Assembly (NCBI GenBank): GCA_020845635.1
Contig: JADLFI010000013.1
Span: forward strand, 1 to 53,724
DNA from: Bacteroidia bacterium
GTDB taxonomy: Bacteria; Bacteroidota; Bacteroidia; UBA4408
Length of the DNA: 53,724 nucleotides
Reading direction: 5' to 3'
Of the stretch, positions 1,541 through 48,082 are shown piece after piece (positions within the stretch are counted from its first letter, which is position 1; every line of letters starts with the position of its first letter). A program made the position numbers and the translations under genes. Under the pieces are notes generated by a model. That model was not told the origin of the DNA. It did not search any database and worked only from the letters and a program-made list of their open reading frames with translations.

Positions 1541-1822
1541 ATGAAGAAACAAGTAATACTTCCGAAATACAGCTCTCTTTTGAGTAAAATGGGAGAAAAT
1601 ATCAAGTTAGCTCGAAAGCGAAGAAAACTGACAACAGTGCAGGTGGCAGAGCGTGCGGATATTTCACGTTCTACTTTGTATTTGGTAGAAAAGGGAGATG
1701 CAAGCGTTGCAATGGGTGCTTACTTCAATGTCTTGCGCGTATTGGGTTTGCAGGATGATTTTTTGAAATTAGCTTCTGATGATGAACTGGGTAGAAAATT
1801 GCAGGATTTAGAACTTTTGTAA
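1541..1822 (+). CDS. hipB: HipB-like antitoxin, XRE-family regulator
   Basis: A 93-residue protein with a single XRE helix-turn-helix (about 18-72): GENIKLARKRR, then TVQVAERADISRSTLYLVEKG as the turn and recognition helix. In HipBA modules HipB neutralises the HipA kinase and represses its own operon. One base separates its stop from the hipA start at 1824, so the two are almost certainly cotranscribed and coupled. An inverted repeat and a -7 element lie just upstream. The C-terminal tail (ELGRKLQDLELL) is the part that contacts the toxin in the family. Identity is strong from the gene pair; direct DNA binding is inferred. Confidence 0.88.
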   Translation: MKKQVILPKYSSLLSKMGENIKLARKRRKLTTVQVAERADISRSTLYLVEKGDASVAMGAYFNVLRVLGLQDDFLKLASDDELGRKLQDLELL

Positions 1823-1823
1823 A

Positions 1824-3074
1824 ATGGCAACAAACAAAACAGATATTTACGTTTTTGCGCAATGGTTTGGGGTGAATGAACCCGAATTATTGGGTATTTT
1901 ATCTGCACATCAAGCCAAAGGACGAAAAGCCTTTAGTTTTGAATACGATAAAAACTGGCTGAAGACAAAAGAACATAAGTTAATAGACCCTGATATTCAG
2001 TTCTATTCGGGACAACAATTTCCTAATAATAAAGAAAATTTTGGTATTTTTTTGGACAGTATGCCCGATACTTGGGGACGAACTTTAATGAAACGAAGAG
2101 AAGCACAATTGGCAAAAGAAAAAGGAGAAAAAGCACGAACATTATATGATGTTGATTATCTGTTAGGCGTGTATGACGAAACCCGAATGGGTGCTTTTCG
2201 TTTTAAGTTGGCTGTTAATGGTGATTTTTTGGACAATGATACAGAGAAATCCACACCACCTTGGTCAACAGTCAGAGAACTACAACAAGCTGTGGTGCAT
2301 TATGAAAACGATACTGAAAACGAAGCCATTAATAAGTGGCTGAAAGTATTGATTGCTCCAGGGTCTTCTTTGGGAGGAGCAAGACCCAAAGCCAATATTT
2401 TGGATGAGCACAACCATCTTTGGATTGCAAAATTTCCGTCAAAAAACGATACGATAGACAAAGCATCTTGGGAATTTTTGACGTATCAATTAGCCATTAA
2501 GGCAGGAATTGAAATGGCAGAATGTAGATTGGAAAAAGTAAGTGGACATCATCATACCTTTTTTACCAAACGATTTGACCGAAACGGAAAGGATAGAATT
2601 CACTTTTCTTCGGCTATGACAATGACGGGCAATAACGAAGACACGATTAAGGAAAATCCTGCAAGCTATCTGGATATCGTGGAATTTATTCAAAACTATG
2701 GCAGTAATGTGGAAGAAAACCTGCATCAGCTTTGGCGAAGAATTGTGTTTAATATCGCTGTTTCCAATACGGATGACCATCTACGCAATCACGGATTTAT
2801 TTTGAGTAAATCAGGTTGGGTTCTATCCCCAGCTTACGACTTGAATCCGTCCATAGACAAAGATGGCCTAGCTCTGAATATTGATATGGACAATAATGCC
2901 TTGGATTTTGAATTGGCGATAAGTGTTGGCGAATACTTTAGGTTGACCACTTTACAAATGAATCAAATCATCGAAGAGGTAAAACAATCTGTTAAGAAGT
3001 GGCAAAACATAGCAAAAACCATCGGGATTTCCCGAGCAGAACAAGAGTTGATGAGCTCTGCATTTAGAATATAA
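1824..3074 (+). CDS. hipA: HipA-family serine/threonine kinase toxin
   Basis: A 416-residue full-length HipA family protein, cytoplasmic. Visible kinase features: the glycine-rich ATP loop SSLGGARPKANI near 183-194, the lysine strand WIAKFPSK just after it, TKRFDR near 250, the catalytic loop SNTDDHLRNHG near 314-324, and the metal-binding LSPAYDL near 335-341. E. coli HipA phosphorylates glutamyl-tRNA synthetase and induces persistence; the target here is unknown. The N-terminal subdomain is present in the same chain, unlike the split hipS/hipT system only 1 kb downstream. The module is bracketed by 27-bp direct repeats derived from a ydeI gene, suggesting arrival as a unit. Confidence 0.92.
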   Translation: MATNKTDIYVFAQWFGVNEPELLGILSAHQAKGRKAFSFEYDKNWLKTKEHKLIDPDIQFYSGQQFPNNKENFGIFLDSMPDTWGRTLMKRREAQLAKEKGEKARTLYDVDYLLGVYDETRMGAFRFKLAVNGDFLDNDTEKSTPPWSTVRELQQAVVHYENDTENEAINKWLKVLIAPGSSLGGARPKANILDEHNHLWIAKFPSKNDTIDKASWEFLTYQLAIKAGIEMAECRLEKVSGHHHTFFTKRFDRNGKDRIHFSSAMTMTGNNEDTIKENPASYLDIVEFIQNYGSNVEENLHQLWRRIVFNIAVSNTDDHLRNHGFILSKSGWVLSPAYDLNPSIDKDGLALNIDMDNNALDFELAISVGEYFRLTTLQMNQIIEEVKQSVKKWQNIAKTIGISRAEQELMSSAFRI

Positions 3075-3331
3075 AGTCTTATTATGAAATACACCGAAGT
3101 TTAATAAGAACAAGCGTTTTTAGGCTATACACAAAATACTGGTTGGTAGAAATAAGCTTTAAAAACAGGGTAAAAATCCTTATTACCTACAAAAATGTAA
3201 AAATAAACATGTTTAAGATTGTTTAATTTTTATATATTTATATAAATAAAATAATGAACAAAACAAAGTTTATTCTAACGGAAATTGTTTTAGTTGAAAA
3301 CCAATTAGGATTCTATTAATCTATCAACCCC

Positions 3332-3428
3332 TCAAAACTGCTTAGGTTTCTTTTTCTGTCCCGCATTTACCGCTATTTCATGAATGCGTTGTTGTCGGGT
3401 TTCGGGGCGTTTGGCAAGAACGCCAGCT
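3332..3428 (-). pseudogene. Remnant of a ydeI gene (C-terminal ~30 codons)
   Basis: The minus strand reads VLAKRPETRQQRIHEIAV, then NAGQKKKPKQF and a stop. Over 91 bp it differs at nine positions from the end of the intact ydeI-type gene at 44399. The reading frame is cut off at the left end of the cassette-flanking repeat (3429), so the rest of the gene was lost or displaced there. The first 27 bp also occur at 1398-1424. Between hipA and this remnant (3075-3331) nothing recognisable is seen apart from AT-rich sequence. Confidence 0.85.
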
Positions 3429-3617
3429 GCCAACATATAGGGATTAAACGAAGCTTTGATTTTATCCTGTGCCTGTCTGCCTTTGGCAGGTTGAATAAAG
3501 CTTCCGAAGTTCGATTAAACGGCTTTAAATGTTTATCAGTTTTTATTTGTATTTTTATTTCAAAAAAATAAACAGCTTGTGTTAATCATGGTAAATTTTT
3601 TCACAGGCTAACGCTAG
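3429..3617 (+). repeat. Cassette-flanking structured repeat, copy A
   Basis: Starts GCCAACATATAGGGATTAAA and ends in CACAGGCTAACGCTAG. It carries the inner hairpin CTGCCTTTGGCAG, the block GTTTATCAGTTTTTATTTG, and the 3' stem CAGCTTGTG / CACAGGCT. Its first hairpin is shortened relative to the other copies. It lies between the ydeI remnant and the hipBST unit. Confidence 0.9.
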
Positions 3618-3671
3618 TCAGAAGGCTATCGAGACAGCTTAAGTAGAATTGTTGGACGATATATAAGCATA

Positions 3672-3815
3672 AAATCATGCTATAGTGTGATTTGCCAATT
3701 TTATATTGCGTTTCAGTAATATATAGCCCCATAAATCACAATATAATGTGATTTTGCTTGTGATTTTAAAAATAAATCCTATCTTTAACCCAAAAATCAC
3801 ATTATAATGTTAGTT
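3672..3815. promoter_or_regulatory. Three evenly spaced HipB-type operators of hipBST
   Basis: Three 22-bp inverted repeats start at 3672, 3733 and 3794, exactly 61 bp apart. The middle one is perfect: AAATCACA, six bases, TGTGATTT. The outer two match it in 6 of 8 arm positions. The third covers the hipB start codon at 3807. The spacing is about six helical turns, placing all three on the same DNA face. This fits autorepression by the HipB dimer encoded immediately downstream. Confidence 0.75.
3758..3787 (+). promoter_or_regulatory. Promoter of hipBST
   Basis: TTG at 3758-3760, a 19-base spacer, then TATCTTTA at 3780-3787, one base off the TAnnTTTG consensus. It lies between operators 2 and 3, so bound HipB would block it. 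The predicted leader is about 15 bases. Confidence 0.6.
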
Positions 3816-4016
3816 AAGACTCTTGGTGCAACCATAAAAAACAGACGAAAGGAGTTAAGTATAACTCAACCTCACTTGGCTGAACTGGCAAATGTCAGCA
3901 CCAACACGCTGTATAAAATAGAACGGGGACAAGGCAATCCTTCTTTAGATGTGCTGAACAAATTGGCTGAAGTGTTGGGAATGGAACTAACCCTTGAAGT
4001 GAAAAAGAAACATTGA
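3807..4016 (+). CDS. hipB: HipB-like XRE-family antitoxin/repressor of a tripartite module
   Basis: A 69-residue, single-domain XRE protein: helix-turn-helix IKNRRKELSITQPHLAELAN followed by NTLYKIERGQGNPSLDVLNKLAEVLG. First gene of a three-gene unit; four bases separate it from the next start. In HipBST systems HipB represses transcription and enhances, rather than provides, neutralisation. Three operator-like inverted repeats precede it, the last overlapping its own start codon. It is shorter than the HipB at 1541 and is not an obvious recent duplicate of it. Confidence 0.88.
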   Translation: MLVKTLGATIKNRRKELSITQPHLAELANVSTNTLYKIERGQGNPSLDVLNKLAEVLGMELTLEVKKKH

Positions 4017-4020
4017 GTAA

Positions 4021-4350
4021 ATGAGAGCAATGGAAATATATCGCAATGGAATTTTAGTGGGAACGCTTACAGAAGAAAATCGTAAGCATTATGTTTTCAG
4101 ATATGATGACAAATATTTTAATGATTCCAATTTGCCACCAGTAAGTTTGACATTACCTAAAACACAGCAGGAATATAGAAGCAGTTTTTTATTCCCCTTT
4201 TTCTTCAATATGCTAAGTGAAGGAGCGAACAGAAAATTACAAAGCACACAATTGAAAATAGACGAAGATGATAATTTCGGTTTGCTGGAAGCAACAGCAC
4301 AATATGATACAATTGGTGCAATAACCGTGAAACCAATAGTGGCAAGATGA
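4021..4350 (+). CDS. hipS: HipS-like protein: free-standing HipA N-terminal subdomain
   Basis: A 109-residue protein matching the HipA N-terminal subdomain: IYRNGILVGTL at the start, YDDKYF, then LPPVSLTLPKTQQEY and LFPFFFNMLSEGANRKL, ending in a short strand region. In full-length HipA this block is fused to the kinase; here it is a separate gene whose last four bases (ATGA) overlap the kinase start. In the E. coli O127 HipBST system the equivalent HipS is the main antitoxin. That role here is inferred from domain content and gene order. Two Met codons (4021 and 4030) could serve as start. Confidence 0.82.
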   Translation: MRAMEIYRNGILVGTLTEENRKHYVFRYDDKYFNDSNLPPVSLTLPKTQQEYRSSFLFPFFFNMLSEGANRKLQSTQLKIDEDDNFGLLEATAQYDTIGAITVKPIVAR

Positions 4351-5354
4351 ACTTAGATGAATTAATATATTGTCCGGGAACATTAGCTGAAGGTTTTTCT
4401 ACTTACAGCCCAAGCTGTTTGCGGAATTTGTTTAACGGTAAAAAGGTAAACCATGTTTTGCCTTATGAACAGCCCCAACAAAGCGAAGAAGTTGCAGAAC
4501 AATTCATAGAAAATCGCAAGCGTATATCCATATCGGGTGTGCAGGAAAAATTGAGCTTTCTTTTGGAGAAAAATGCATTACGATTAACAAAGGAAGGGGA
4601 ACAGGGAACATATATCCTCAAGCCGATACCAAAAGATTTGAAAAAGGTTGACCAGGTTCCTGCCAACGAACACCTGACTATGCAAATAGCCAAACAAGTG
4701 TATGGATTGAATACGGCAGAAAATGCTATAATTTTTTTTAAGGATAGTTCACCTGCCTATATCACCAAACGATTTGACGTGAAAGATAACGGAAATAAAT
4801 GGGGCAAAGAAGATTTTGCAACGCTGGCAGAAAAAACAAAAGACAATGCAGGTGCAAATTTCAAATATGAGTACAGCTATGAAGAGGCTGGGCTGTTGAT
4901 ACAAAAATTTGTTCCGGCATGGCGGATAGAAATAGAAAAATATTTTTCTTTAGTTATTTTCAATTTTCTGTTTTCAAACGGAGATGCTCATTTAAAGAAC
5001 TTTTCTTTGCTAGAATCTCCCAGTGGAGATTATCTGCTAAGTCCGGCTTATGATTTAGTAAATACAAGGTTACATGTGGACGATACAGATTTTGCATTGG
5101 ATAAAGGACTGTTTGCAGACGATTATAGAAGTCAGCAATACAAAAAAAGCGGACATCCTTCCCAAAGCGATTTCACGGAATTTGCATTGAGAATTGGAGT
5201 TGCTGAAAGCCGAGTTCAGAAACTATTAAATCCCTTTTTAGAAAAGCAACCTTTCGTGGAAACATTAATCAGTCGTTCTTTTTTAACTGAGGGCAACAAG
5301 AAAGGGTATTTACTTATGTATAACACAAAGAGAAATCATTTAATAGCTCAATGA
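4347..5354 (+). CDS. hipT: HipT-like kinase toxin (HipA kinase core)
   Basis: A 335-residue HipA-like kinase lacking the N-terminal subdomain. The glycine-rich loop reads RISISGVQEKLS with the SIS motif at S61 and S63, the two-serine arrangement described as autophosphorylation sites in HipT. ATP-site lysine lies in TYILKPIP (about 88-95), TKRFD at 140-144, catalytic loop NGDAHLKN with D213 and N218, and metal-binding LSPAYDL with D236. Length matches HipT rather than HipA (about 440). E. coli O127 HipT phosphorylates tryptophanyl-tRNA synthetase; the target here is unknown. It overlaps hipS by 4 bp, so expression is coupled. Confidence 0.87.
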   Translation: MNLDELIYCPGTLAEGFSTYSPSCLRNLFNGKKVNHVLPYEQPQQSEEVAEQFIENRKRISISGVQEKLSFLLEKNALRLTKEGEQGTYILKPIPKDLKKVDQVPANEHLTMQIAKQVYGLNTAENAIIFFKDSSPAYITKRFDVKDNGNKWGKEDFATLAEKTKDNAGANFKYEYSYEEAGLLIQKFVPAWRIEIEKYFSLVIFNFLFSNGDAHLKNFSLLESPSGDYLLSPAYDLVNTRLHVDDTDFALDKGLFADDYRSQQYKKSGHPSQSDFTEFALRIGVAESRVQKLLNPFLEKQPFVETLISRSFLTEGNKKGYLLMYNTKRNHLIAQ

Positions 5355-5387
5355 GATTAAAACATGAAGAGATTATAGAAGCATGAA

Positions 5388-5587
5388 CCGCTAACATACA
5401 GGGATTAAACCAAGCTCTGCTTTGATTTTATCCAGTGCCTGACTGCCTTTGGCAGGTTGAATAAAGCCTCCGAAGTTCGATTGAATAGCTTTAAATGTTT
5501 ATCAGTTTTTATTTGTATTTTTACTTCGTTACTAATAAAAAGCTTGTATTAATTACTACGAGTTTTTTCACAGGCTGACGTTGGCGG
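5388..5587 (+). repeat. Cassette-flanking structured repeat, copy B
   Basis: A full 200-bp copy. The left end CCGCTAACATACAGGG pairs with the right end GTTGGCGG. Hairpin 1 is GGATTAAACCAAGC / GCTTTGATTTTATCC, the inner hairpin CTGCCTTTGGCAG is present, and the 3' stem is AGCTTGTA / CACAGGCT. It separates the hipBST unit from the unknown/MazF-like unit. Confidence 0.92.
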
Positions 5588-5643
5588 AAACCCTAAAAAA
5601 CCAAATCCGCAGCTATTTTGACAATAATAGTGACTTTTTCGAG

Positions 5644-5673
5644 TTGATACAGTGTGATATTTTAGTATATTTG
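5644..5673 (+). promoter_or_regulatory. Consensus promoter of the 5680 gene
   Basis: TTG at 5644-5646, exactly 19 bases, then TATATTTG at 5666-5673, a full TAnnTTTG match. Transcription should begin at about 5677, only a few bases before the ATG at 5680. This argues against the in-frame TTG at 5581, which lies in the repeat upstream of the promoter. Confidence 0.75.
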
Positions 5674-5679
5674 CACATT

Positions 5680-6450
5680 ATGTTAGCGACCGTAAAAAAT
5701 TACGATTTAATTTGTTACCAGTTGAGAAACAACCTTTATTCTCAGCTAGACAACTCTTTGAAAAAAGATATAGATAAACTTTCAAAAGAGATAACTAACA
5801 TTCTTAATTCAAGCAAGAAAATTCAAAGTCAATCCGTTGACGTCTTAGCTCAATTATTTAATTTGAGAGTAAAGGCAATTAAATGGCTTTCCCAAGACAA
5901 TAATTTCAACTATTTGGAAATGTTATCTGAAGTTACTAGCCAAATTGAAGAGATTGGAGAAAACAGAAAAATGGAAATTCTTAAGGATAACATTCTCTTT
6001 GCATTGCGATGCAACAGAAGAGTTATAGAAAGTTTATTCAATTCTGGAGGACAATCGGAAAACCTGAATATTGATTTCAACCAATTGCCTGACATTAACT
6101 ATCAACAATTTTTAGCATCATTAGCCTTTGCAATTCCTGACGATGAAACTGCACAAAAAATTGCAGACTGGACTAATGCTTCATTACACATAGAGTTTGT
6201 GATGTTAGCTGCTGACATAATAAGAGATGAAAAAATTAAAGTGTCGGACAGCTCAATCAATGAGTTATCATTCTTAGTGGCAGATGCTGCTCAAGAATAT
6301 TCTGCTTTAGCAACAGAATTTGGAATATTGAAAACGAAAGCAAATCAACAATCATTTTCAAACCAACCATTCGACAAAAGTTTTGTAAAAGAACAAAAGA
6401 CACTTGCTGATATTGGGATTGAGGACTTTGCATCAAATTTCACAAACTAA
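5680..6450 (+). CDS. Protein of unknown family paired with a MazF-like toxin
   Basis: A 256-residue protein with no recognised domain or signal peptide. It is predicted mostly helical, with a polar helical N-terminal half (NSLKKDIDKLSKEITNILNSSKK) and a C-terminal tail FDKSFVKEQKTLADIGIEDF that could be a toxin-binding segment. The frame is open back to a TTG at 5581, but that codon is in the cassette repeat and a consensus promoter lies between. I therefore start at ATG 5680, which would make the transcript leaderless or nearly so. Six bases after its stop begins a MazF/PemK-like gene, so by position it may be the antitoxin, although it is far longer than known MazE-type antitoxins and lacks a visible DNA-binding motif. 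Function is inferred from context only. Confidence 0.6.
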   Translation: MLATVKNYDLICYQLRNNLYSQLDNSLKKDIDKLSKEITNILNSSKKIQSQSVDVLAQLFNLRVKAIKWLSQDNNFNYLEMLSEVTSQIEEIGENRKMEILKDNILFALRCNRRVIESLFNSGGQSENLNIDFNQLPDINYQQFLASLAFAIPDDETAQKIADWTNASLHIEFVMLAADIIRDEKIKVSDSSINELSFLVADAAQEYSALATEFGILKTKANQQSFSNQPFDKSFVKEQKTLADIGIEDFASNFTN

Positions 6451-6456
6451 CAAAGG

Positions 6457-6801
6457 ATGAACTTAGCTAAAGGTGAAATTATTGATGTTAATCTTGGTCA
6501 ACCACCAAAAGAAGTTAAAGGTCACGAGCAAGGATTTGAAAGACCCTGTATTGTAATAAAAGCATTCAGCAATTTAGGTTTAGCAATCGTGATTCCAGTG
6601 ACAAGTAAACAGCCCAAATACTCGATTTTTACAATAGTCAAATTATTAAAAGGCACTGGTGGTTTAACGACTGACAGCTATGCTTTGTGCCACCAAATCA
6701 GGACTGTTTCATTCGACAGAGTTATTAAAAAACGAGCGAAACTATATAATAAAGACATTTTAAAAATCCACTCTGTTCTCATCGACACTTTAGAGATTTA
6801 A
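6457..6801 (+). CDS. MazF/PemK-family toxin (putative endoribonuclease)
   Basis: A 114-residue protein with the MazF/PemK fold signature in order: GEIIDVNLGQPP at the start, the FERPCIVIKAF strand (family RPxLVL), VIPVTSK, and the late SYALCHQIRTVSFDRV segment that carries the conserved Gln-Ile-Arg-Thr of the active-site region. It ends with IKKRAKLYNKDILKIHSVL, the usual last helix. Family members cut mRNA or tRNA at short motifs and are inhibited by a small antitoxin encoded upstream. Here the upstream partner (5680) is of unknown family. It is the second gene of the unit between repeat copies B and C. Confidence 0.85.
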   Translation: MNLAKGEIIDVNLGQPPKEVKGHEQGFERPCIVIKAFSNLGLAIVIPVTSKQPKYSIFTIVKLLKGTGGLTTDSYALCHQIRTVSFDRVIKKRAKLYNKDILKIHSVLIDTLEI

Positions 6802-6811
6802 CGAAGGGCAT

Positions 6812-6991
6812 CCGCCAACATATAGGGATTAAACCAAGCTCTGCTTTGATTTAATCCTGTGTTGAATGAAGCTTCCGGAGTTCAATTAAGCAGCTTTATA
6901 TGTTTATCAGTTTTTATTTGTATTTTTATTTCGCTAATAATATACAGCTTGTGTTGACTAATACGAGTTTTTTCACAGGCTGCCTTTAGAG
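6812..6991 (+). repeat. Cassette-flanking structured repeat, copy C
   Basis: A 180-bp copy starting CCGCCAACATATAGGG and ending CACAGGCTGCCTTTAGAG. Hairpin 1 is complete (GGATTAAACCAAGC / GCTTTGATTTAATCC). The inner CTGCCTTTGGCAG hairpin is absent, so that hairpin is a separate optional insert. The 3' stem is CAGCTTGTG / CACAGGCTG with one wobble pair. Confidence 0.92.
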
Positions 6992-7015
6992 TACATTTAA
7001 AAAACGACATTTAAG

Positions 7016-7621
7016 ATGAAAAACAAATTATTATTTGTACCCTTGCTCTTAATTTTGGCTTCCTGTCAACCAATTTTGATGAAACTTTATGGAATAAAAA
7101 ATCCAGACATTGAGAATGATAAAAGCATTATAAAAAAGGCACTTAAATATGGACTTGATACTTCAAATATTGTGACGGTAAACAGCAAAGAATTTCTTTA
7201 TGTAATAACTGAACAAGGAATTCCGAATGGAGCAATTTATGACAGAAACGGTAATTACATTGAATATAGACAAACGGACACATCCTGTAATGCAGGATTG
7301 TTTCAATTTATCCCGGCTTTAAATTTAGTTGACAAGTACAATCAACCTGATAGTAGTAACCTGAAAACAGAGCTGAGTAAATTTAGGGACTTAAAAGGAA
7401 ACACACTTAAGCAACCTGAACCTGCTGATTATTACTTGTTAATTTACTGGACTGTGTGGGCAGGAAAACTGAACAGGGATCACGTGAAAATTTGGGAAAA
7501 ACTAGCTCGAGATAACAAAAACTGTAAAGTTAAAGTGATTAAAGTAAACTTAGATATTCAAGAATATTGGAACGAGCAAGAGCGAGATAAAATTGTTAGA
7601 GCAATAAGTAAGAAGAAATAA
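7016..7621 (+). CDS. Lipoprotein with thioredoxin-like segment lacking the CxxC pair
   Basis: A 201-residue protein with a lipoprotein signal peptide (MKNKLLFVPLLLILASC; lipobox LASC, lipidated Cys17). Residues about 138-185 read YYLLIYWTVWAGKLNRDHVK, a helix, then KVKVIKVNLD. This follows the strand-WAxWC-helix-strand pattern of thioredoxin folds, but both redox cysteines are replaced (WAGKLN). It would sit on the inner or outer membrane facing the periplasm. Its start is only 25 bases after the right end of repeat copy C, so its promoter must lie in the repeat. It is the only gene of its unit. The thioredoxin relationship is a pattern match, not certain. Confidence 0.65.
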   Translation: MKNKLLFVPLLLILASCQPILMKLYGIKNPDIENDKSIIKKALKYGLDTSNIVTVNSKEFLYVITEQGIPNGAIYDRNGNYIEYRQTDTSCNAGLFQFIPALNLVDKYNQPDSSNLKTELSKFRDLKGNTLKQPEPADYYLLIYWTVWAGKLNRDHVKIWEKLARDNKNCKVKVIKVNLDIQEYWNEQERDKIVRAISKKK

Positions 7622-7630
7622 AAACACCAT

Positions 7631-7790
7631 ATAACATATAGGAATTAAACCAAGCTCTGCTTTGATTTTATCCAGTGCCTGACTGCCTTTGGCAGGTTGA
7701 ATGAAGCTTCCGGAGCTCAGTTGCCAATAAAATATATTATGGGGTTTTAAAAAATTAGGTGTGTTTTTAAACAACAAACAAGTGTACTTT
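7631..7790 (+). repeat. Cassette-flanking repeat, copy D (left half with variant right part)
   Basis: The left half is standard: AACATATAGGAATTAAACC, hairpin 1, the inner CTGCCTTTGGCAG hairpin, and AAGCTTCCGGAG. After CAGTTG it departs from copies A, B, C and E and instead matches 47980-48010 on the minus strand: TAAAATATATTATGGG and then TTTTAAAAA-GGTGTG. In the 48-kb copy this variant part forms the start of an ORF; here a run-length difference closes that frame at once. Confidence 0.8.
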
Positions 7791-8107
7791 TAAGTACCGT
7801 TGAGGGGTGTTTTATGGAGTTTGTGTTGTGAAGTAGTCAATAAAAAACGAAAGGTGTTTTGCAGGGTTGCCTCTATTTTTACATGTCTTGCGCAATTTTA
7901 AGTCGTTTTACAGCATCTTATTTTTTATTTTAGGGAAATCTATTTTTGAAAAAAGGCTCTTTAAAGTTGCTTAAAATTGAAATAAATATGTAGTTTAGCA
8001 GCAGAAATTTTAAACTAAAAGGGTTATTAGACGGACTGCCGTTAGCGGTGAGCCTAACATTGTACAAGAAACTAACCAACAAACTGAATCCATAAACTAA
8101 ATTTACC
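7791..8107 (+). other. Gene-free stretch ending in an isolated repeat terminus
   Basis: No ORF or family is recognisable at 7791-8030. At 8034-8048 the sequence GACTGCCGTTAGCGG is the best version of the right terminus of the repeat family and is the exact complement of the left terminus CCGCTAAC of copy B. GCCTAAC follows at 8052-8058. The gene of the next unit starts 60 bases further on. A decayed or deleted unit may have occupied this interval. Confidence 0.55.
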
Positions 8108-9322
8108 ATGAAACCACTGTCAACATCAATCTTTATTTTAATGGCCTCTCTCGTCTTTGGACAAAAAATGACACTAGACCCTAAAATGTTAGAAATGGGC
8201 TGGAATTTTGTTTCACCGTTAGTGATTAATAAAGTTGAGGACCCACTTACAAAGGAAATTATAACTAAAACGATTCCTAAAATAATCAGAGAAGATGTGA
8301 AGGGAGCTGCATATGAAATCGGTGATGCGATATACAGAATAAAGAATGTTAAAGTATTAAATAAAGAGTATTTAATACAACAAGAGAGCAGTATAACAGT
8401 TGCATTAAGTGCAATAAAACATAAAGATTACGCAAAAGCTGTTAATGAAATGGCCACATTGGTAGCCATAACTGACAGATATATCAAAAGTGGTCTATTA
8501 GACAAAGAAGAAGCAAAACCTTCTGGAATTGACAATAATATAGAAGCTAATCTCGTTAAGAATGAGGAAATAAATGGCAAAGTAGTCATCGAGAAAAATA
8601 GTAGTTACTATTTCTTTATACCTAACGGAACTGTTAGTGAAATACAATCGAAGGACACTACACTCACTAAATTTAGATTTAATTCAAACAGCGGAAGATA
8701 TTTTGAAATTGGAATTGTTAAACAGCAAGTAGATGAGGAAAATTGGTCAATAGACTATTTAGAGAAGAATCCTTCATTTAGAGATTCTTGGATAAATATC
8801 ATCTCAACAAATGTACTAAAGGATAAATTCGGTGATGGGATAGCGTCTCCTGCATCTTTTGTTAGTACTCAGAATTTTAAAGCGTATAAATTACCATACA
8901 TAGCAACCTCTGATGCTTCAATGACTACAACATTCTTAACATTTCACAACGCAAACATTTATTTAATATATTTCAAATCCAGTCAAGCAGACTTTCCCGC
9001 AAACTATAAGGAATTCGAAGAAATAACAAATATGTTTTTCTTTGGGGAACCACTTCCTTTCTGCCAAATCAAGAAAATCGGGAAAATTAACATTATTAAC
9101 AAATCACTCAACCCTTATGATCTCTATAAAAACGAGGAATTTATCACTACAATCAACGGAAAATCTGAATATAAGCTCAATGTTGCAGTTGGAGTCACAT
9201 ATTTAAAAGCAACTCAAAAATCAGGTTATATGTTATATCCAACTGAGAATAAAAGAACAGTGAATATAAAAACTTCATGTCAAGATGCAACTGTTGAAAT
9301 TGGCTTTGAGGACAAGAAATGA
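8108..9322 (+). CDS. Secreted protein of unknown function
   Basis: A 404-residue protein with a Sec signal peptide (MKPLSTSIFILMASLVFGQK, likely cut near 19-20), so periplasmic or exported; no lipobox and no T9SS tail. The N-terminal third is helical (ENLVKNEEINGK ends it). The middle, about 160-315, is a mixed domain with YYFFIPNGT and FRDSWINIISTN. The last 80 residues look like a small beta domain (LYKNEEFITTINGKSEYKLN) with two cysteines. I do not recognise a family. It is the single gene between the 8034 repeat terminus and repeat copy E. The TGA stop is only 10 bases before the next repeat. Confidence 0.7.
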   Translation: MKPLSTSIFILMASLVFGQKMTLDPKMLEMGWNFVSPLVINKVEDPLTKEIITKTIPKIIREDVKGAAYEIGDAIYRIKNVKVLNKEYLIQQESSITVALSAIKHKDYAKAVNEMATLVAITDRYIKSGLLDKEEAKPSGIDNNIEANLVKNEEINGKVVIEKNSSYYFFIPNGTVSEIQSKDTTLTKFRFNSNSGRYFEIGIVKQQVDEENWSIDYLEKNPSFRDSWINIISTNVLKDKFGDGIASPASFVSTQNFKAYKLPYIATSDASMTTTFLTFHNANIYLIYFKSSQADFPANYKEFEEITNMFFFGEPLPFCQIKKIGKINIINKSLNPYDLYKNEEFITTINGKSEYKLNVAVGVTYLKATQKSGYMLYPTENKRTVNIKTSCQDATVEIGFEDKK

Positions 9323-9330
9323 TAGGCCTA

Positions 9331-9530
9331 CTGCCAACATATAGGAATTAAACCAAGCTCAGCTTTGATTTAATCCTGTGCGTGACTGCCTTTGGCAGGT
9401 TGAATGAAGCTTCCGGAGTTCGATTGAATAGCTTTAAATGTTTATCAGTTTTTATTTGTATTTTTACTTCGTTAATAATATAAAGCTTGTGTTGACTAAT
9501 ACGAGTTTTTTCACAGGCTGCCTTTAGAGG
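9331..9530 (+). repeat. Cassette-flanking structured repeat, copy E
   Basis: A 200-bp full copy: CTGCCAACATATAGGAATTA at the left, hairpin 1, inner CTGCCTTTGGCAG hairpin, GCTTCCGGAGTTCGATTG, GTTTATCAGTTTTTATTTG, 3' stem AGCTTGTG / CACAGGCT, right end CTGCCTTTAGAGG. It is closest to copies B and C, which argues for recent spread or gene conversion. Confidence 0.92.
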
Positions 9531-9586
9531 TCATTCTATAGCAACAACCTCCAAATATTGATCATGCAAGAAATTACAACAAAAAA

Positions 9587-9994
9587 ATGCAACAGAAACA
9601 ACTACCAATTGGATATTACCTGAAACTTGTAGATAACTGTTTGACAAGAGGAATAGATGAAATTCAATCAAAGCACGGACTAAATAGACTGGAATGGCAA
9701 GTTTTGAATTCTATTTACGAGAAACCAGGAATTTTAAAAACTGAAATTCTTGAACTTATGAAACCACTAGCCGACTTTCAAGTGGTTGAATCTATCTTTA
9801 ATAAATTCATCGAAAAAAATCAAATAGAGATTAAAAGCAATATGCTGGCTTTGACAACACTAGGAAAAGAATTGCATAAGTCTTGCTTTGACTCTCAACA
9901 AGAATTTAGAAAAAAAGCTATTACTAATATTTCAGAAACAGAATATCAAACTACGATTTCAACTTTACAAAAAATGATAGCTAACTTATCATAA
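9587..9994 (+). CDS. MarR-like winged-helix regulator
   Basis: A 135-residue single-domain protein. Residues about 28-95 form a MarR-like winged helix: LNRLEWQVLNSIYEKPG (helix before the turn), KTEILELMKP, a recognition-type helix VVESIFNKFIEKN, and a wing QIEIKSNMLALTTLGKELHK. The C-terminal helix fits the dimer region. The ligand and targets are unknown. The usual Pro-Ser recognition sequence is not obvious, so the family call is tentative. The ATG at 9564 is out of frame and closes quickly, so 9587 is the start. It is the only gene between repeat copies E and F. Confidence 0.55.
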   Translation: MQQKQLPIGYYLKLVDNCLTRGIDEIQSKHGLNRLEWQVLNSIYEKPGILKTEILELMKPLADFQVVESIFNKFIEKNQIEIKSNMLALTTLGKELHKSCFDSQQEFRKKAITNISETEYQTTISTLQKMIANLS

Positions 9995-10039
9995 TGTAAG
10001 CTCCCCATAATTAAACTTATTAAAAATAGACTTTATTCA

Positions 10040-10110
10040 TTTTTTTGTATCATTGTAACGATTAATTGTTAACAGCTTGTTTTAAATTTTACACAGGTTG
10101 CCGTTAATGG
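10040..10110 (+). repeat. Cassette-flanking repeat, copy F (right half only)
   Basis: It retains TTTTTTTGTATCATTG (promoter-like), AACAGCTTGT, and ACACAGGTTGCCGTTAATGG. The 3' stem still pairs when G-T wobbles are allowed (CAGCTTGT with ACAGGTTG), so sequence changes have kept the fold. The left half is missing; only AT-rich sequence separates it from the 9587 gene. Confidence 0.75.
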
Positions 10111-10162
10111 AAAGGCTGACAACAACTATATTTAAGGATTTTTTTACATCATAAAATAAATC

Positions 10163-10663
10163 ATGGGACAATACAAAGCTTGCTCGTTAAATTCCAAGAA
10201 TTTCAGCTTGACCTATGAAAATTCAAAAGTTGGGGAACTTAATTATGCCAAATGGTATTCGTTTAAAGCTGAAATACTGTTGGCCGACAATTCCGTTTAT
10301 CACCTAGAACCAAAGGGTTTTTGGGATTCAAAAGTGGAATTAAAGAAAGGAGATATGACATTATTGGAGTTCAAAATGGGATGGAAAGGAATTGTTATTA
10401 ATACTTCTTTTGGTGGAATTGAAAAGAATTATCTGCTAAAATTAAAAGGATTGCTAAATAGCAAATATGTACTTATTGATGCAGAAGCCAATGAAATATT
10501 AGCTGTTGATACAAATTTTAAATGGAGCAAACTAAATTTTGACTACACCATTGAAACTTCAAAAGAGTTTGACATGATGGAAAATAGAGAACTTATGGTA
10601 TTGACAATTTTACATTGTGTAAATTATTATTTGACCATGATTGTTGCTGCTTCTCCTTCTTAA
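10163..10663 (+). CDS. Protein of unknown function, beta-rich
   Basis: A 166-residue cytoplasmic protein with no signal peptide. It is predicted mostly beta: FSLTYENSKVGELNYAKWYS, YHLEPKGFWDSKVEL, LLEFKMGWKGIVINTSF, YVLIDAEANEILAVD. It ends in a hydrophobic helix (LMVLTILHCVNYYLTMIVAA) that may anchor it in a membrane. The alternating strands and the hydrophobic end resemble LURP-one/scramblase-like beta-barrel proteins, but I cannot support that name. Single gene of the unit between repeat copies F and G; last gene of the array. Confidence 0.6.
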   Translation: MGQYKACSLNSKNFSLTYENSKVGELNYAKWYSFKAEILLADNSVYHLEPKGFWDSKVELKKGDMTLLEFKMGWKGIVINTSFGGIEKNYLLKLKGLLNSKYVLIDAEANEILAVDTNFKWSKLNFDYTIETSKEFDMMENRELMVLTILHCVNYYLTMIVAASPS

Positions 10664-10681
10664 ACAAAAAACCCTCCTACC

Positions 10682-10849
10682 CCTAACCTATCAGGATTTT
10701 AGCTAAACGCATATCCTGTGTTGAGTTAAGCGTTGGCTTAGCTTATCCGGTCAAACTCGGCCTTTTTCGTTATATTGGCATGTTTGTTGTATAAATAACA
10801 AACAGTTTGTGTTTAGAGCTTACACTTTTTCAGGTGCTGCCTTTGCGTG
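10682..10849 (+). repeat. Cassette-flanking repeat, copy G (divergent, right border of the array)
   Basis: Starts CCTAACCTATCAGGATTTTA, contains ATCCTGTGTTGAGTTAAGCG, CAAACAGTTTGTG and TTTTTCAGGTGCTGCC. The order of elements is the same as in the other copies but the sequence is diverged. It marks the boundary between accessory DNA and the housekeeping block that begins with the amidase. The rest of the 10664-11000 gap is AT-rich and holds only the amidase promoter. Confidence 0.75.
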
Positions 10850-10981
10850 TTCAATCTAAAACATACATCAATCGGCAGCTATTAATTAGCTCATTTTTTC
10901 GCATCAGCAAATAAAACACTTATTAACAATTAACTATTAATTAATGACGTAAAACTAAGGCGTTTCATTTAGTTTAACTTA

Positions 10982-10989
10982 TAATTTTG
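10982..10989 (+). promoter_or_regulatory. Promoter -7 element of the amidase operon
   Basis: TAATTTTG matches TAnnTTTG and lies 11 bases before the ATG, implying a very short leader. No clear TTG is seen at -33. Confidence 0.5.
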
Positions 10990-11000
10990 CGTTTGTAGGT

Positions 11001-12185
11001 ATGTTTAAATTTAGGTATTCCATATTTTCAATAAAAGTACTTTTATTCTTCTTTCTGGTATGTACGGCATTTAGTTCTTATTCTCCCGGAAAAAGAATAA
11101 GGGTGGTTGTGCTTAATGCGGGTCATGGTGGTAACGATCCGGGCTGTCAGGGCTCAAAATTTTTGGAAAAAGAAGTGGCTTTGGCAATTACACTCAAACT
11201 CGGAAAATATATTGAAGATAATATTAAAGAGGTAAAAGTTTTATACACCCGAAAAACAGATGTTTTTGTTCCGCTCGACCAGATAGCATCACATGCCAAT
11301 AAGAACAATGCAGATTTGTTTATTTGTATTCATTGCAATGCTTCGGTAAACAAGCAGGTGTATGGCTCTGAAACTTATGTTATGGGCTTGCATAAAACCA
11401 AAGGAAATTTGGAAGTAGCCAAACGCGAGAACGCCTCCATACTTTACGAAGAGGATTATAAGAAAAAATATGAAGGCTTTGACCCTAACAGTGATGAGGC
11501 TAATATTATTTTTAATATGTACCAAAATGCTTTTTTGGAACATAGCCTTAATTTTGCCTCCAAGGTACAGGGAGAGTTTAAGAAAAATAAAAACCTTACT
11601 GATAAAGGAGTTAAACAAGCAGGTTTTTTGGTACTTTGGAAAACCTCTATGCCCAGTGTACTTATTGAAACAGGCTTTTTAACTAATCTTGAAGAAGAAA
11701 AATATTTGGGCTCTCAAAAAGGGCAAGACGAAATAGCTTATGCCATATACAGGGCATTTAAGAACTATAAGGCCGAGGTGGAAGGTTATACGCCTGCTCC
11801 TGATAATGAAAAACGACAAATTGTAATTGATTCCCCGGAAAAAGAAAAAGTTGCTTCTAATCAAGATAGCGCAACCAATAACAATACAGCAAACACACCG
11901 ACTGTTCAGGCAAGCAATGCAATTGTATATCGAATTCAGTTAATGAGTTCGTCTAAAAAAATAGCACTAAACAGTTCAAAATTTAAAGGGCTTAGTGATA
12001 TATTTGAGTTTCAAGAAGATGATACTTTTAAATATTTCAGCGGATCATATCAAACTTACGAGGAGGCATTTGAAGCTCAAAGAGAAGTCAGAAAAAATAA
12101 TTTTCCTGATGCCTTTACGGTGGCCTTTGTTGATGGAAAAAAGATGAGTGTAAAAGATGCCAAGGCACTTTCCGAAAAGAAATAA
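11001..12185 (+). CDS. N-acetylmuramoyl-L-alanine amidase (Amidase_3) with SPOR-like C-terminus
   Basis: A 394-residue zinc amidase that cleaves the bond between muramic acid and the stem peptide in cell-wall turnover and division. N-terminal signal/anchor (about 10-27). Catalytic domain about 33-255 with the ligand motifs LNAGHGGNDPG (His42), E57 in FLEKEVA, FICIHCNAS, and the late glutamate in VLIETGFLTN. A low-complexity linker (about 270-305) leads to a SPOR-like domain (YRIQLMSSSKKI... YFSGSYQTYEEAFEAQ), which usually binds denuded glycan at septa. It heads a four-gene block with MCE and Fe-S genes; that neighbourhood recurs in Bacteroidota as far as I know. Confidence 0.93.
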   Translation: MFKFRYSIFSIKVLLFFFLVCTAFSSYSPGKRIRVVVLNAGHGGNDPGCQGSKFLEKEVALAITLKLGKYIEDNIKEVKVLYTRKTDVFVPLDQIASHANKNNADLFICIHCNASVNKQVYGSETYVMGLHKTKGNLEVAKRENASILYEEDYKKKYEGFDPNSDEANIIFNMYQNAFLEHSLNFASKVQGEFKKNKNLTDKGVKQAGFLVLWKTSMPSVLIETGFLTNLEEEKYLGSQKGQDEIAYAIYRAFKNYKAEVEGYTPAPDNEKRQIVIDSPEKEKVASNQDSATNNNTANTPTVQASNAIVYRIQLMSSSKKIALNSSKFKGLSDIFEFQEDDTFKYFSGSYQTYEEAFEAQREVRKNNFPDAFTVAFVDGKKMSVKDAKALSEKK

Positions 12186-12208
12186 ATATACTATGGTTGA
12201 AAATCTGC

Positions 12209-12227
12209 AAAAAGCTTAGGCTTTTTT
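12209..12227 (+). terminator. Weak stem-loop with T-run after the amidase
   Basis: AAAAAGC, loop TTAG, GCTTTTTT: a 7-bp stem followed by T-rich sequence. It may attenuate or end the amidase transcript; a -7 element TACATTTG at 12254-12261 could restart transcription for the MCE gene. Confidence 0.45.
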
Positions 12228-12289
12228 ATTATGGATAAATAAAACAAAATATTTACATTTGATTTTTAATATAAATTTAAAACTAAGTT

Positions 12290-13261
12290 GTGGTTATAAA
12301 AAAGGAAGTTAAAATTGGAGCAATTGTTGTAGTTGCAGTATTTCTGTTTATTTACGGATTTAATTTCTTAAAAGGTAAAAATATCTTTACATCTCGAACT
12401 CATTATTATGTGGTTTATAAAAATGTGGGAGGCCTGACCGAAAGTAATCCTGTATATTTTAATGGCTTTGTTATTGGAAAAGTTAATAAAATAATGTTTG
12501 CCTCTGATATGCGAGGCGATATTGTAGTAGATATAATACTACGCGAAAACGATTTAAAAATTCCAAAAAATACCATTGCTCGCATATTTAGCGATGGCTT
12601 GTTGGGGACTAAAGCCATTGGACTTGATTTTGGCGACTCGAAAGAATACGCACAAAGTGGCGATACTTTATTGCCAAATTTAGAAAACAGTATTACCGAG
12701 CAAATGAGTAAAGAGTTGATGCCTGTAAAAGACAAGGCCGAAAGCCTTATAATAAGGGCCGACTCTTTAATCAATACCATTACCCGAATTTTTTCGCCCA
12801 ATGTTAATGACAACCTGCGTCATAGTATTGAAAATGTAAATACCATAACCTTAAATGTAAATGGATTGGTATCTGAGCAACGTGCCAGATTAAATACTAT
12901 AACTGCTAATATTGAATCTATCTCTAAAAACTTAAAAGATAATAACGAAAATTTAAGTAAAGTTATAGCCAACTTTAAAAACATAAGTGACTCGGTAGCC
13001 AAAGTTAATTTAGCGCAAACTCTCGAAAACGCAAACTTAGCCGTTAAACAAACTGCCGAAATAATGGAAAAAATAAATAGCGGTAAAGGCTCTTTGGGTA
13101 TGCTCATCAATAACGATTCGCTGTACCATCATTTAAATATGGCCTCGCGCGATTTAGATTTACTACTGGTTGACCTCAAGGAACATCCTAAGCGTTATGT
13201 TCATTTATCGGTTTTTGGCAAAAGCGATAAGCCCGACAAATCATCCAAAAAGAAAAAATAG
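12290..13261 (+). CDS. MCE-family (MlaD-like) lipid-transport protein
   Basis: A 323-residue inner-membrane anchored periplasmic protein. One N-terminal transmembrane helix (about 8-27, VKIGAIVVVAVFLFIYGFNF). MCE/MlaD domain about 37-118: YVVYKNVGGLTESNPVYFNG and GLLGTKAIGLDFG. Then a long alpha-helical region (about 130-280) with repeated Asn/Ile heptad-like patterns, and a lysine-rich tail. MCE proteins form rings or tunnels that carry phospholipids between membranes; the ABC partner genes are not here. The start is GTG at 12290. A TACATTTG -7 element lies upstream at 12254. Confidence 0.9.
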   Translation: MVIKKEVKIGAIVVVAVFLFIYGFNFLKGKNIFTSRTHYYVVYKNVGGLTESNPVYFNGFVIGKVNKIMFASDMRGDIVVDIILRENDLKIPKNTIARIFSDGLLGTKAIGLDFGDSKEYAQSGDTLLPNLENSITEQMSKELMPVKDKAESLIIRADSLINTITRIFSPNVNDNLRHSIENVNTITLNVNGLVSEQRARLNTITANIESISKNLKDNNENLSKVIANFKNISDSVAKVNLAQTLENANLAVKQTAEIMEKINSGKGSLGMLINNDSLYHHLNMASRDLDLLLVDLKEHPKRYVHLSVFGKSDKPDKSSKKKK

Positions 13262-44316: not shown

Positions 44317-44398
44317 GGTGTGGTTTTATGATGTAAAAGTCTAAATTTTTTGCAAATAAAAGAGAAGAAAAATTATTCAAATTCAAACTTAACTTTTC

Positions 44399-44971
44399 TC
44401 AAAACTGCTTGGGTTTCTTTCTCTTTCCGGCATTTACCGCAATTTCATGAATGCGTTGTTTTCGGGTTTCGGGTCGTTTGGCTAAAACTAACCATTGCAG
44501 CATCATTTTTCGAACAGACCTACTCAAACTTTCAAAAAACAGTTGTGAGCCCTGAAATTTATCAAACTCAGTTTTTAAATCTTGAGGTATAATGAGCTTT
44601 TCAACTTCGTCTAATAAAGCCCACGAACCATTTTGTTTTGCCAACTCAATACTGCGTAATCCTGCAGCTTGCATACGTCCGCTTGCAATAAGTTGGGTAA
44701 CTTTTTCTTTATTAATTTTTGACCAAGTGCTATTGGCTTTGCGTTTGCTAAAAAACTGATGCGAAGTTTCAGAATCAATTCTTACTTTCTTACTGTCAAT
44801 CCAACCATAGCAAAGCGCCACATCAACAGTTTCACTCCAAGAAAGCGAAAATCTACCAGATGCTTTGGTATGAAAAACAAGCCACACAGCAGTTTCCGAA
44901 AGGTGGTGCGTTGACAACCAATCTTCCCATGCTGCAAGGCTTGATGGATAGAAAATTTTAGTTTCTGACAT
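44399..44971 (-). CDS. YdeI/OmpD-associated family protein
   Basis: A 190-residue protein with the YdeI family pattern: FYPSLAAWEDWLSTHH, VALCYGWIDSKKVRIDS, HQFFSKRKANSTWSKINKEK, VTQLIASGRMQAAGL, and the C-terminal AKRPETRKQRIHEIAVNAG then KRKKPKQF. The function of the family is poorly known. Two decayed copies of its 3' end lie at 1398-1424 and 3332-3428, one on each side of hipBA. Confidence 0.88.
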   Translation of the reverse strand: MSETKIFYPSSLAAWEDWLSTHHLSETAVWLVFHTKASGRFSLSWSETVDVALCYGWIDSKKVRIDSETSHQFFSKRKANSTWSKINKEKVTQLIASGRMQAAGLRSIELAKQNGSWALLDEVEKLIIPQDLKTEFDKFQGSQLFFESLSRSVRKMMLQWLVLAKRPETRKQRIHEIAVNAGKRKKPKQF

Positions 44972-45133: not shown

Positions 45134-46981
45134 TTATTGTACTTCCACTAAGCGAAAGCTTACCCCTTGTTTGGTTTCAAGTTGTAACAAATATAATCCA
45201 TTGGATAAATGCGAAACAGGTATTTTATGTTCATGACTCACAGAATTAGTTTGATATACTATTCTACCTAGATTGTCTAATAAGGTTAAGGTACTCAATT
45301 CGGTTTGCTGACTAAAAACAGTAATATAACTAGAGGCAGGGTTTGGATAGACACGAATTGCTTGTAAAGCCGAATTCTCTTTTAACATCACTGTGGTAAT
45401 AGAATAACAAGTTGAGGTATCGGTACAGCCATTTTGTGTTACGGTCACAGCATAATTTCCATTTGTTGGTGCTATAAATTGGGCATTGGTTTCCCCTAAA
45501 ATTTCACTCATGTTAGCATCACAATCCAGCCATTGATAAGTGGCATTAGTGGCATTGGCAGTTAGAATTGGTGCTGCATTGGTAACACTTACATCTACGC
45601 TTTGTATGGTCAAGTTCAATGTTACAACACTATCACAACCTGCTGCATTGGTTAAGGTGTGTGTTGCAGTATTGTTGTTAGCAGTATAAGTAACACCATT
45701 TATCCATGTGTAGCTGCCGCAAGCTGTTTGTGTGTCAGTTCCGGTTGTAGGGGTACACATTGAAAAAACTCTTGCATGTCCGGCATTTATTGCCGACCCA
45801 TCATTAAATCTTGAGCCAATGGCAACGGTATTAGCATCTCCCATACTTACCGAATACCCGCTATGGTCGCCAGCTACTTCTCCATCTATATCTACACCTT
45901 TTTGCATCCATGCGTTTCCGTTCCAATTAAAAATTCTTACATGGCCGGCATCTGAACCATTCCCATCACTGTAAATAGCGCTTATAGCAAGTGTATTGGC
46001 ATTAGCCATGCTAACTGACCAACCACTGTGATCATTTGCTGCTTCACCGTTTATATCTATACCTTTTTGCGTCCATGCAGTCCCGCTCCATTGATATATG
46101 CGTACATGCCCTGAATTGGTTCCACCTCCGTCATTATATCGAGCCCCAATGGCAACCGTATTGGCATCTCCCATACTAACAGACCAACCACTGCGATCAT
46201 TAAATGTTTCGCCATCTATATCACTTCCTTTTTGAACCCAAGCAGTGCCATCCCAATTATACACTCTTACATGACCAAATTCATTCCCTGCACCACTATT
46301 ATAGATAGCTCCAATAGCTACCGTGTTGGTATCTGGCATACTTATCGAATATCCGCTCTGATCTCCGGCAGCTTCTCCATCAATGTCAATTCCTTTTTGT
46401 ACCCAAGCAGTTCCATCCCACCTATACACTCTTACATGACCTGCATCTAATCCGGAACCATCATTAAATAAAGCACCTATGGCTACTGTATGAGCATTGG
46501 GCATGCTTACCGAAAATCCACTTTGATCTCCGGAAGCTTCTCCATCAATGTCCAATCCTTTTTGTGTCCATGCATTTCCGTTCCAGCTATATACTCTAAC
46601 ATGACCGGCACTTGATCCTGCCCCATCATTTCCACTAGCCCCAATGGCAATAGTGTTTGCATCGGGCATACTTATGGCACTGCCACTTTGGTCATCAACA
46701 TTTTCTCCATTGATTTCTAATCCTTTTTGAACCCAAGCATTTCCATTCCAACTATACACTCTTACTTGACCCGCATTAGATCCTACTACATCGTTAAGGG
46801 GTGCTCCAATAGCAATTGTGTTTGCATCAGGCATACTCACCGCCCAACCACTGTAATCATCAGCAGATTCACCATCTAAGTCTATTCCCTTTTGAATTTG
46901 AGCCTTACAGTTCTCTATAGTTACAAAGGAAGTCAAAAGCAATCCTGTAAGAAGTGTTGGGAACCATTTATTGTTTTTCAT
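45134..46981 (-). CDS. T9SS-secreted protein with seven FG-GAP-like repeats
   Basis: A 615-residue exported protein. Signal peptide (about 1-27), seven tandem 55-residue repeats (about 30-412) of the form GxDIDGE...D.SG.SVSM.DANTVAIGA..NDG.G...GHVRVY.W.G.AW.QK, then a cysteine-containing beta region (TACGSYTWINGVTYTANNN) and an Ig-like segment, and a T9SS type A sorting domain (IRVYPNPASSYITVFSQ ... FRLVEVQ). FG-GAP repeats form propeller blades; seven copies would close a ring. Cell-surface or released; ligand unknown. The repeats are also direct DNA repeats of about 165 bp. Confidence 0.9.
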   Translation of the reverse strand: MKNNKWFPTLLTGLLLTSFVTIENCKAQIQKGIDLDGESADDYSGWAVSMPDANTIAIGAPLNDVVGSNAGQVRVYSWNGNAWVQKGLEINGENVDDQSGSAISMPDANTIAIGASGNDGAGSSAGHVRVYSWNGNAWTQKGLDIDGEASGDQSGFSVSMPNAHTVAIGALFNDGSGLDAGHVRVYRWDGTAWVQKGIDIDGEAAGDQSGYSISMPDTNTVAIGAIYNSGAGNEFGHVRVYNWDGTAWVQKGSDIDGETFNDRSGWSVSMGDANTVAIGARYNDGGGTNSGHVRIYQWSGTAWTQKGIDINGEAANDHSGWSVSMANANTLAISAIYSDGNGSDAGHVRIFNWNGNAWMQKGVDIDGEVAGDHSGYSVSMGDANTVAIGSRFNDGSAINAGHARVFSMCTPTTGTDTQTACGSYTWINGVTYTANNNTATHTLTNAAGCDSVVTLNLTIQSVDVSVTNAAPILTANATNATYQWLDCDANMSEILGETNAQFIAPTNGNYAVTVTQNGCTDTSTCYSITTVMLKENSALQAIRVYPNPASSYITVFSQQTELSTLTLLDNLGRIVYQTNSVSHEHKIPVSHLSNGLYLLQLETKQGVSFRLVEVQ

Positions 46982-47599: not shown

Positions 47600-47989
47600 T
47601 TATCGATGCAAGTGTAAATTTTTGATTGTAATTTGCGCAATAACAAATATGGTAACTATAATAAATGCAAATAAATGATCTATTTCAGATTTAGTCATTT
47701 CATTTCTAATATATCTCATGTCTGAAATATTCATTTTATGGTCAAATTTTAGTTTCAGGTTAAAGAACCTAAAAAATGTGTTTTTCACAATCCATTTAAC
47801 TACACCTACTCCAATGATTTTATTTGTCAATTCGTTTTTAATAAAATTGAGATTTGATAATTCTTTATTATAGAAATTCGTCTTTCTGATTGATGCAGTG
47901 AAAATCATTCCTGCAATAAATGAAAGGAATACAATTGAAATACTGAAACTAAAATACTTTAAAATCACACCGAAATTTTTAAAACCCAT
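47600..47989 (-). CDS. Small membrane protein of unknown function
   Basis: A 129-residue protein with two transmembrane helices: one near the N-terminus (YFSFSISIVFLSFIAGMIF) and one at the C-terminus (LFAFIIVTIFVIAQITI), with a basic middle. I start at MGFKNFGVILK; the longer frame begins inside the repeat. The start codon itself lies in the variant part of the cassette-flanking repeat, shared with 7730-7790. No family recognised. Confidence 0.5.
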   Translation of the reverse strand: MGFKNFGVILKYFSFSISIVFLSFIAGMIFTASIRKTNFYNKELSNLNFIKNELTNKIIGVGVVKWIVKNTFFRFFNLKLKFDHKMNISDMRYIRNEMTKSEIDHLFAFIIVTIFVIAQITIKNLHLHR

Positions 47990-48082
47990 AATATATTTTA
48001 CTTGCAACTGAACTCCGTAAGATTCATTCAACACAGGATTAAACCAAAGCAGAGCTTCGCTAAAATCCTATATTTTGGCGAC
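47980..48082 (-). repeat. Cassette-flanking repeat, minus-strand copy H (left half, variant)
   Basis: On the minus strand it reads GTCGCCAAAATATAGGATTT, a hairpin AGCGAAGCTCTGCTTTGG, TTTAATCCTGTGTTGAATGA, GGAGTTCAGTTG and TAAAATATATTATGGG. It lies nine bases after the stop of the 48091 gene, the position such repeats take after genes in the 1-11 kb array. The variant end equals that of copy D. Confidence 0.8.

Follow-up and report, generated by a model that had tools for sequence, protein, structure and literature searches.

Integrons capture gene cassettes by means of a tyrosine recombinase, IntI, encoded divergently from an array that begins at attI. Their cassettes mostly carry one gene, lie in one orientation and end in hairpin-forming attC sites with an AAC/GTT core, in which the crossover falls between G and TT (written here G/TT). 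The two ends of the same cassette are complementary, since they meet in the circular form, and the bottom strand of attC is preferred about 1000-fold (PMC8946536). IntI proteins carry an additional domain that a survey of tyrosine recombinases calls essential for integron function, although it is not fully conserved in the integron-like subgroup of that survey (PMC8138268). Searches for integrons demand this domain (PMC9668308), and for the Bacteroidetes proper IntegronFinder 2.0 names a complete integron in Salinibacter. Clusters of attC lacking an integrase are known as CALINs. Here we describe part of a gene-cassette array from a Bacteroidia genome that resembles an integron in its organization, and a recombinase elsewhere in the same genome that lacks the IntI-specific domain and is inferred to serve it. 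We found no paper describing this system in a literature search that did not cover preprints and most subscription journals.

The window, that is, the whole stretch of 53,724 nucleotides that we analyzed, contains one family of four repeat copies of ~200 nt (a ~190-nt repeat) at 3421, 5387, 6792, and 9330, with 61-87% identity, plus a left-half copy at 7632. The genome (3.05 Mb, 60 contigs) holds 40 matches to the copy at 5385-5592 at E<2e-7, in arrays on contigs C10, C13 (the window), C42, C45, and others, often at contig ends. All window copies between 3.4 and 10.9 kb lie between genes and in one orientation. The repeats and the units that they delimit are as follows.

3432 to 3615, plus strand: attC-like site S1 (R'' AAC at 3432; degenerate R' GCT at 3613); the arm after it pairs poorly with the next cassette end (2/6), so it has probably decayed.
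3614 to 5580, plus strand: cassette 1, with an HTH regulator (3807-4016; Pfam HTH_3), a HipA N-terminal protein (4021-4350; Couple_hipA), and a HipA C-terminal protein (4347-5354; HipA_C).
5393 to 5582, plus strand: attC-like site S2 (R'' AAC at 5393; R' GTT at 5580).
5581 to 6985, plus strand: cassette 2, with an unknown 289-aa protein (5581-6450) and a PemK/MazF toxin (6457-6801); its arms, GTTGGCGGAAACCCT and GTTGGCGGATGCCCT, match 6/6 + 4/4.
6817 to 6987, plus strand: attC-like site S3 (R'' AAC at 6817; R' TTT at 6985).
6986 to 8041, plus strand: cassette 3, with a 201-aa protein with a lipoprotein-like signal (7016-7621); its arms match 2/6 + 3/4.
7633 to 8043, plus strand: attC-like site S4, long form (R'' AAC at 7633; R' GTT at 8041), whose interior resembles an insertion-sequence end.
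8042 to 9523, plus strand: cassette 4, with an unknown 404-aa protein (8108-9322); its arms, GTTAGCGGTGAGCC and GTTGGCAGTAGGCC, match 4/6 + 4/4.
9336 to 9525, plus strand: attC-like site S5 (R'' AAC at 9336; R' TTT at 9523).
9524 to 10103, plus strand: cassette 5, with an unknown 135-aa protein (9587-9994); its 3' arm was not recognized.
10060 to 10105, plus strand: right part of attC-like site S6 (R' GTT at 10103).
10104 to 10842, plus strand: cassette 6, with an unknown 166-aa protein (10163-10663); its arms match 3/6 + 1/4.
10685 to 10844, plus strand: divergent attC-like site S7 at the array end (R'' AAC at 10685; TTT at about 10842).
47958 to 48081, minus strand: orphan left half of a long-form site.

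The cargo thus comprises a three-gene HipA-type set, a PemK/MazF toxin with an unknown partner, and four proteins without a Pfam match. The original prediction, which proposed an integron-like array and, as one reading, an unrecognized cassette system of Bacteroidota, is supported by our results, yet some of its details were incorrect. The elements at 7631 and 8034, taken as two partial copies, are the two ends of one long site (7633-8043); the element at 10682, counted among the full or nearly full copies, is a divergent site, whereas only a right part is present at 10040; and the left-half copy at 48081-47958 was an additional one. The complementary termini, assigned to the two ends of one copy, belong instead to neighboring copies, that is, to the start and end of the same cassette, and the CCTGTG/CACAGG interior is partly shared with the end of an insertion sequence.

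To distinguish a cassette array from a transposon-derived repeat, in which the two ends of one copy would be related, we compared the 15-nt arm starting each unit (G/TTRNNNNN...) with the arm preceding each AAC. In the genome containing the window, arms across one cassette match at 75 positions in 12 pairs, against 48.4±5.2 with permuted partners (0 of 100,000 permutations), while arms of the same repeat match at 46 positions, against 47.0±4.9. The clearest cases are a cassette on contig C10, with arms GTTATAAGTAATGGTTGTGG and GTTATAAGTTGTGGTTGTGG, and window cassette 2; in contrast, several window arms are decayed, among them the one at 6985. This pattern is the signature of integron cassettes.

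The genome encodes three tyrosine recombinases. Two are Xer-like proteins of 303 residues, and the third, of 358 residues, is encoded on contig C38 beside a tRNA-like sequence. In addition, a decayed tyrosine recombinase with several stops lies beside a left-half site on C42 (99623-99865). Relatives of the C38 protein exist in scattered Bacteroidota (26 loci) and, at 50% identity or more over most of the length, in about 18 of 395 genomes of the class; plasmid-borne integrases with 40% identity are found in Chryseobacterium. The C38 protein falls inside a clade with 100/99 support, with IntI1 and the Xer proteins outside, although the long branches of these outgroups leave their order unsure. 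The catalytic R, K, H, R, H, and Y columns are conserved. Yet IntI1 residues 197-220, the heart of the IntI-specific insertion, have no counterpart in the ~50 family members aligned; between the two aligned blocks, IntI4 has 62 residues, whereas the C38 protein has 17; and the score to the integron-integrase model TIGR02249 is 182 bits, against a cut-off of 265. The C38 enzyme is therefore not an IntI by definition. Its best sequence and fold matches are XerA/Xer-type simple tyrosine recombinases (NF040815, 209 bits, below its cut-off of 220; 4a8e and 5hxy), and its fold neighbors are XerA and IntI4; it differs from the Xer-type enzymes in its linkage to attI and cassette arrays and in its N-terminal extension. 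This extra N-terminal module of ~65 residues has an invariant WS...WY..D motif and is modeled as a bb-a-bb-a fold (pLDDT near 88 there; overall pTM only 0.52), with a sub-threshold hit to DUF5710.

Directly upstream of the integrase gene, and divergent from it, lies a conserved site, TKCGTATATTTGNGNG/TTR, that behaves as attI. It was found with at most 6 mismatches in 21 positions in 17 of 19 loci and in 12 of 17 further genomes; of the 5 further genomes in which it was not seen, two have short or unusual upstream stretches. The site on C38 departs from the consensus at 5 of 21 positions. Further TGCGTATTTTGTAT-like copies occur between attI and the integrase start in loci L064-L081, possibly representing binding repeats as in attI1. 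Many contigs end 100-1500 bp beyond attI, as expected for repeat arrays. Immediately beyond attI lies a cassette: the reverse complement of its first 9 nt recurs downstream exactly in 7 of 12 testable genomes and with one mismatch in 2 more, against 3 of 190 for 9-mers from other genomes and 0.57% for shuffled ones. In the genome containing the window, however, the array is not seen joined to the C38 attI, since the first cassette there runs to the contig end, and a search of the genome for its 3' arm returned only attI itself. An exact attI pattern searched across 395 genomes of the phylum gave 4 hits, about the number expected by chance, in genomes with no close relative of the integrase.

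We next examined arrays in relatives. A scan for AAC plus stem followed by stem plus GTT identified sites of mostly 124 nt and none in 45 kb of shuffled DNA, while an Rfam search of three arrays returned nothing. In these sites GTTR is constant and the next bases are free (GTTACCTG, GTTATGTG, and GTTGAGTG), so that they do not follow the GTTRRRY/RYYYAAC consensus. In the C. lacus and KLAP123 arrays, 7 of 8 tested pairs of arms are identical over the six free positions; the eighth (C. lacus locus L132, 1228/3893), 2.6 kb apart, matched at 2/6 and probably skips an undetected site. Five further arrays chain from attI, one of them over four cassettes. The inner stem covaries strongly, with 89 double-change cells against 34.1±4.1 expected by shuffling. 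Interestingly, arm position 11 is A in the 5' arm and G in the reverse complement of the 3' arm in 16 of 18 pairs, which gives a mismatch on the top strand and a T-G wobble on the bottom strand. Predicted folding of the circle-form junction gives averages of -30.8 (top) and -34.2 kcal/mol (bottom), against -24.3 and -25.6 for the array form, so that cognate-arm junctions fold 6-9 kcal/mol better on average; the bottom strand is predicted to be more stable in 17 of 18.

Naturally differing genomes break exactly at G/TT. Namely, G604 (contig C2) and G617 (contig C14), two genomes placed in different families, share 2,732 identical bases including the integrase; identity ends at GTTA, after which GTTACAGG and GTTAGTGG begin different cassettes. 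This may reflect recent transfer, or the two could be one population's DNA binned twice, which would still represent two alleles differing at the crossover. Loci L072 and L077 share a cassette start, with 125 of 125 bases identical up to the contig ends; it follows an attC in one and attI in the other, with no shared base to the left of G. These are precise gains or replacements of the kind asked for in the original prediction, although recombination itself is inferred.

The sites of the genome containing the window (about 170-190 nt, and about 410 nt for S4) differ from the 124-nt sites of relatives. Their right half is contiguous with the start of a transposase-like reading frame (MPKITPKNRTQIEF...) on C20 (4200-4312) and C55 and in another genome, G039, and the long form resembles an element end present at attC cores in Epilithonimonas and Chryseobacterium. 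We infer that the interior of these sites is partly derived from insertion sequences while the outer arms, and so the cassette logic, persist, although it is possible that many of these sites are no longer recombined. The copy at 9320-9545 had no match among plasmids.

Given these results, we conclude with high confidence that the region is an integrase-less, CALIN-like stretch of a gene-cassette array belonging to an integron-like platform. Each cassette runs from the TT of one site to the G of the next (TT and 5' arm, gene or genes, 3' arm and AAC, hairpin body, and G); the arms of one cassette are complementary, so that in the excised circle, or its single strand, they close a stem around the hairpin body. 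We infer that the C38 recombinase recognizes the folded site by shape, preferably on the bottom strand, and exchanges a strand between G and TT of attC and attI; that it acts on the window's array is inferred from shared architecture. In comparison with IntI integrons, the recombinase lacks the IntI-specific domain and carries the N-terminal module, the arms are 15 nt with six free positions instead of the 7-nt RYYYAAC/GTTRRRY, the sites range from 124 to >400 nt, the arm has a conserved T-G wobble, and attI has a sequence of its own. In comparison with CALINs, the sites do not follow the canonical attC consensus. Searches that demand the IntI-specific domain would not report this platform, which would explain mobile toxin-antitoxin and unknown single-gene cargo across many genera, would show that this domain is not indispensable for moving cassettes with folded sites, and provides simple handles, the attI motif and the arm rule, to map cassettes. 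More tentatively, Bacteroidota may have evolved a cassette-capture platform independently of IntI integrons, in which a Xer-like recombinase with an N-terminal module instead of the IntI-specific domain reads long cassette-specific hairpins and selects the strand by the conserved T-G wobble.

Alternatively, the repeats could be MITEs or insertion-sequence ends scattered between genes, with the genes lying between them by accident or through homologous recombination, the latter being the second reading offered in the original prediction. The transposase-like frame next to the right half, the element-like left half, and the many half copies in the genome are in line with this scenario. Yet the two ends of a MITE should resemble each other within a copy, whereas here same-copy arms match no more than by chance, only a short CCTGTG/CACAGG pair being present in the interior, and arms across the gene do match. 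Moreover, relatives show the same arm rule with a different 124-nt site, and natural junctions break at the exact crossover. This scenario is thus contradicted for the arms, capture by homologous recombination is disfavored, and we consider both very unlikely. It is also very unlikely that each unit is a transposon with terminal inverted repeats, the arms, inserted next to hairpins. The arms do flank genes as inverted repeats, and some units carry element-like ends (GTTGAAC...) next to such hairpins; but the arms are different in every unit while the crossover GTT and the hairpin after AAC are constant, one G/TT junction serves both attI and attC, and arrays start at attI beside a tyrosine recombinase. 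Finally, an ordinary IntI supplied from elsewhere, with the C38 recombinase unrelated, would agree with the AAC/GTT core and with the general lack of intI in CALINs, but is equally unlikely because the genome has no TIGR02249 match above cut-off, the arrays of relatives begin at the attI of the C38-type gene, and the R' box breaks GTTRRRY.

It is noteworthy that elements with a tyrosine-recombinase gene and ends reading GTTGAAC... abut the AAC of attC-like cores in loci L066 (about 10780-13230 in the array direction), L141 (4800-6112), and L132 (near 117), as if targeting or mimicking cassettes. Within the window, two HipA-type sets lie side by side, one outside (1541-3074) and one inside (3807-5354) the first cassette, and a 91-bp sequence is repeated at 90% identity at 3331-3421 and 44398-44488, one copy directly before the first site. 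The window also contains six to seven tandem copies of a 165-bp unit, 66-70% alike, at 45798-46922, and in-frame 36-bp tandem repeats at 1-180, at the start of an ORF that continues into a restriction-modification specificity-like protein.
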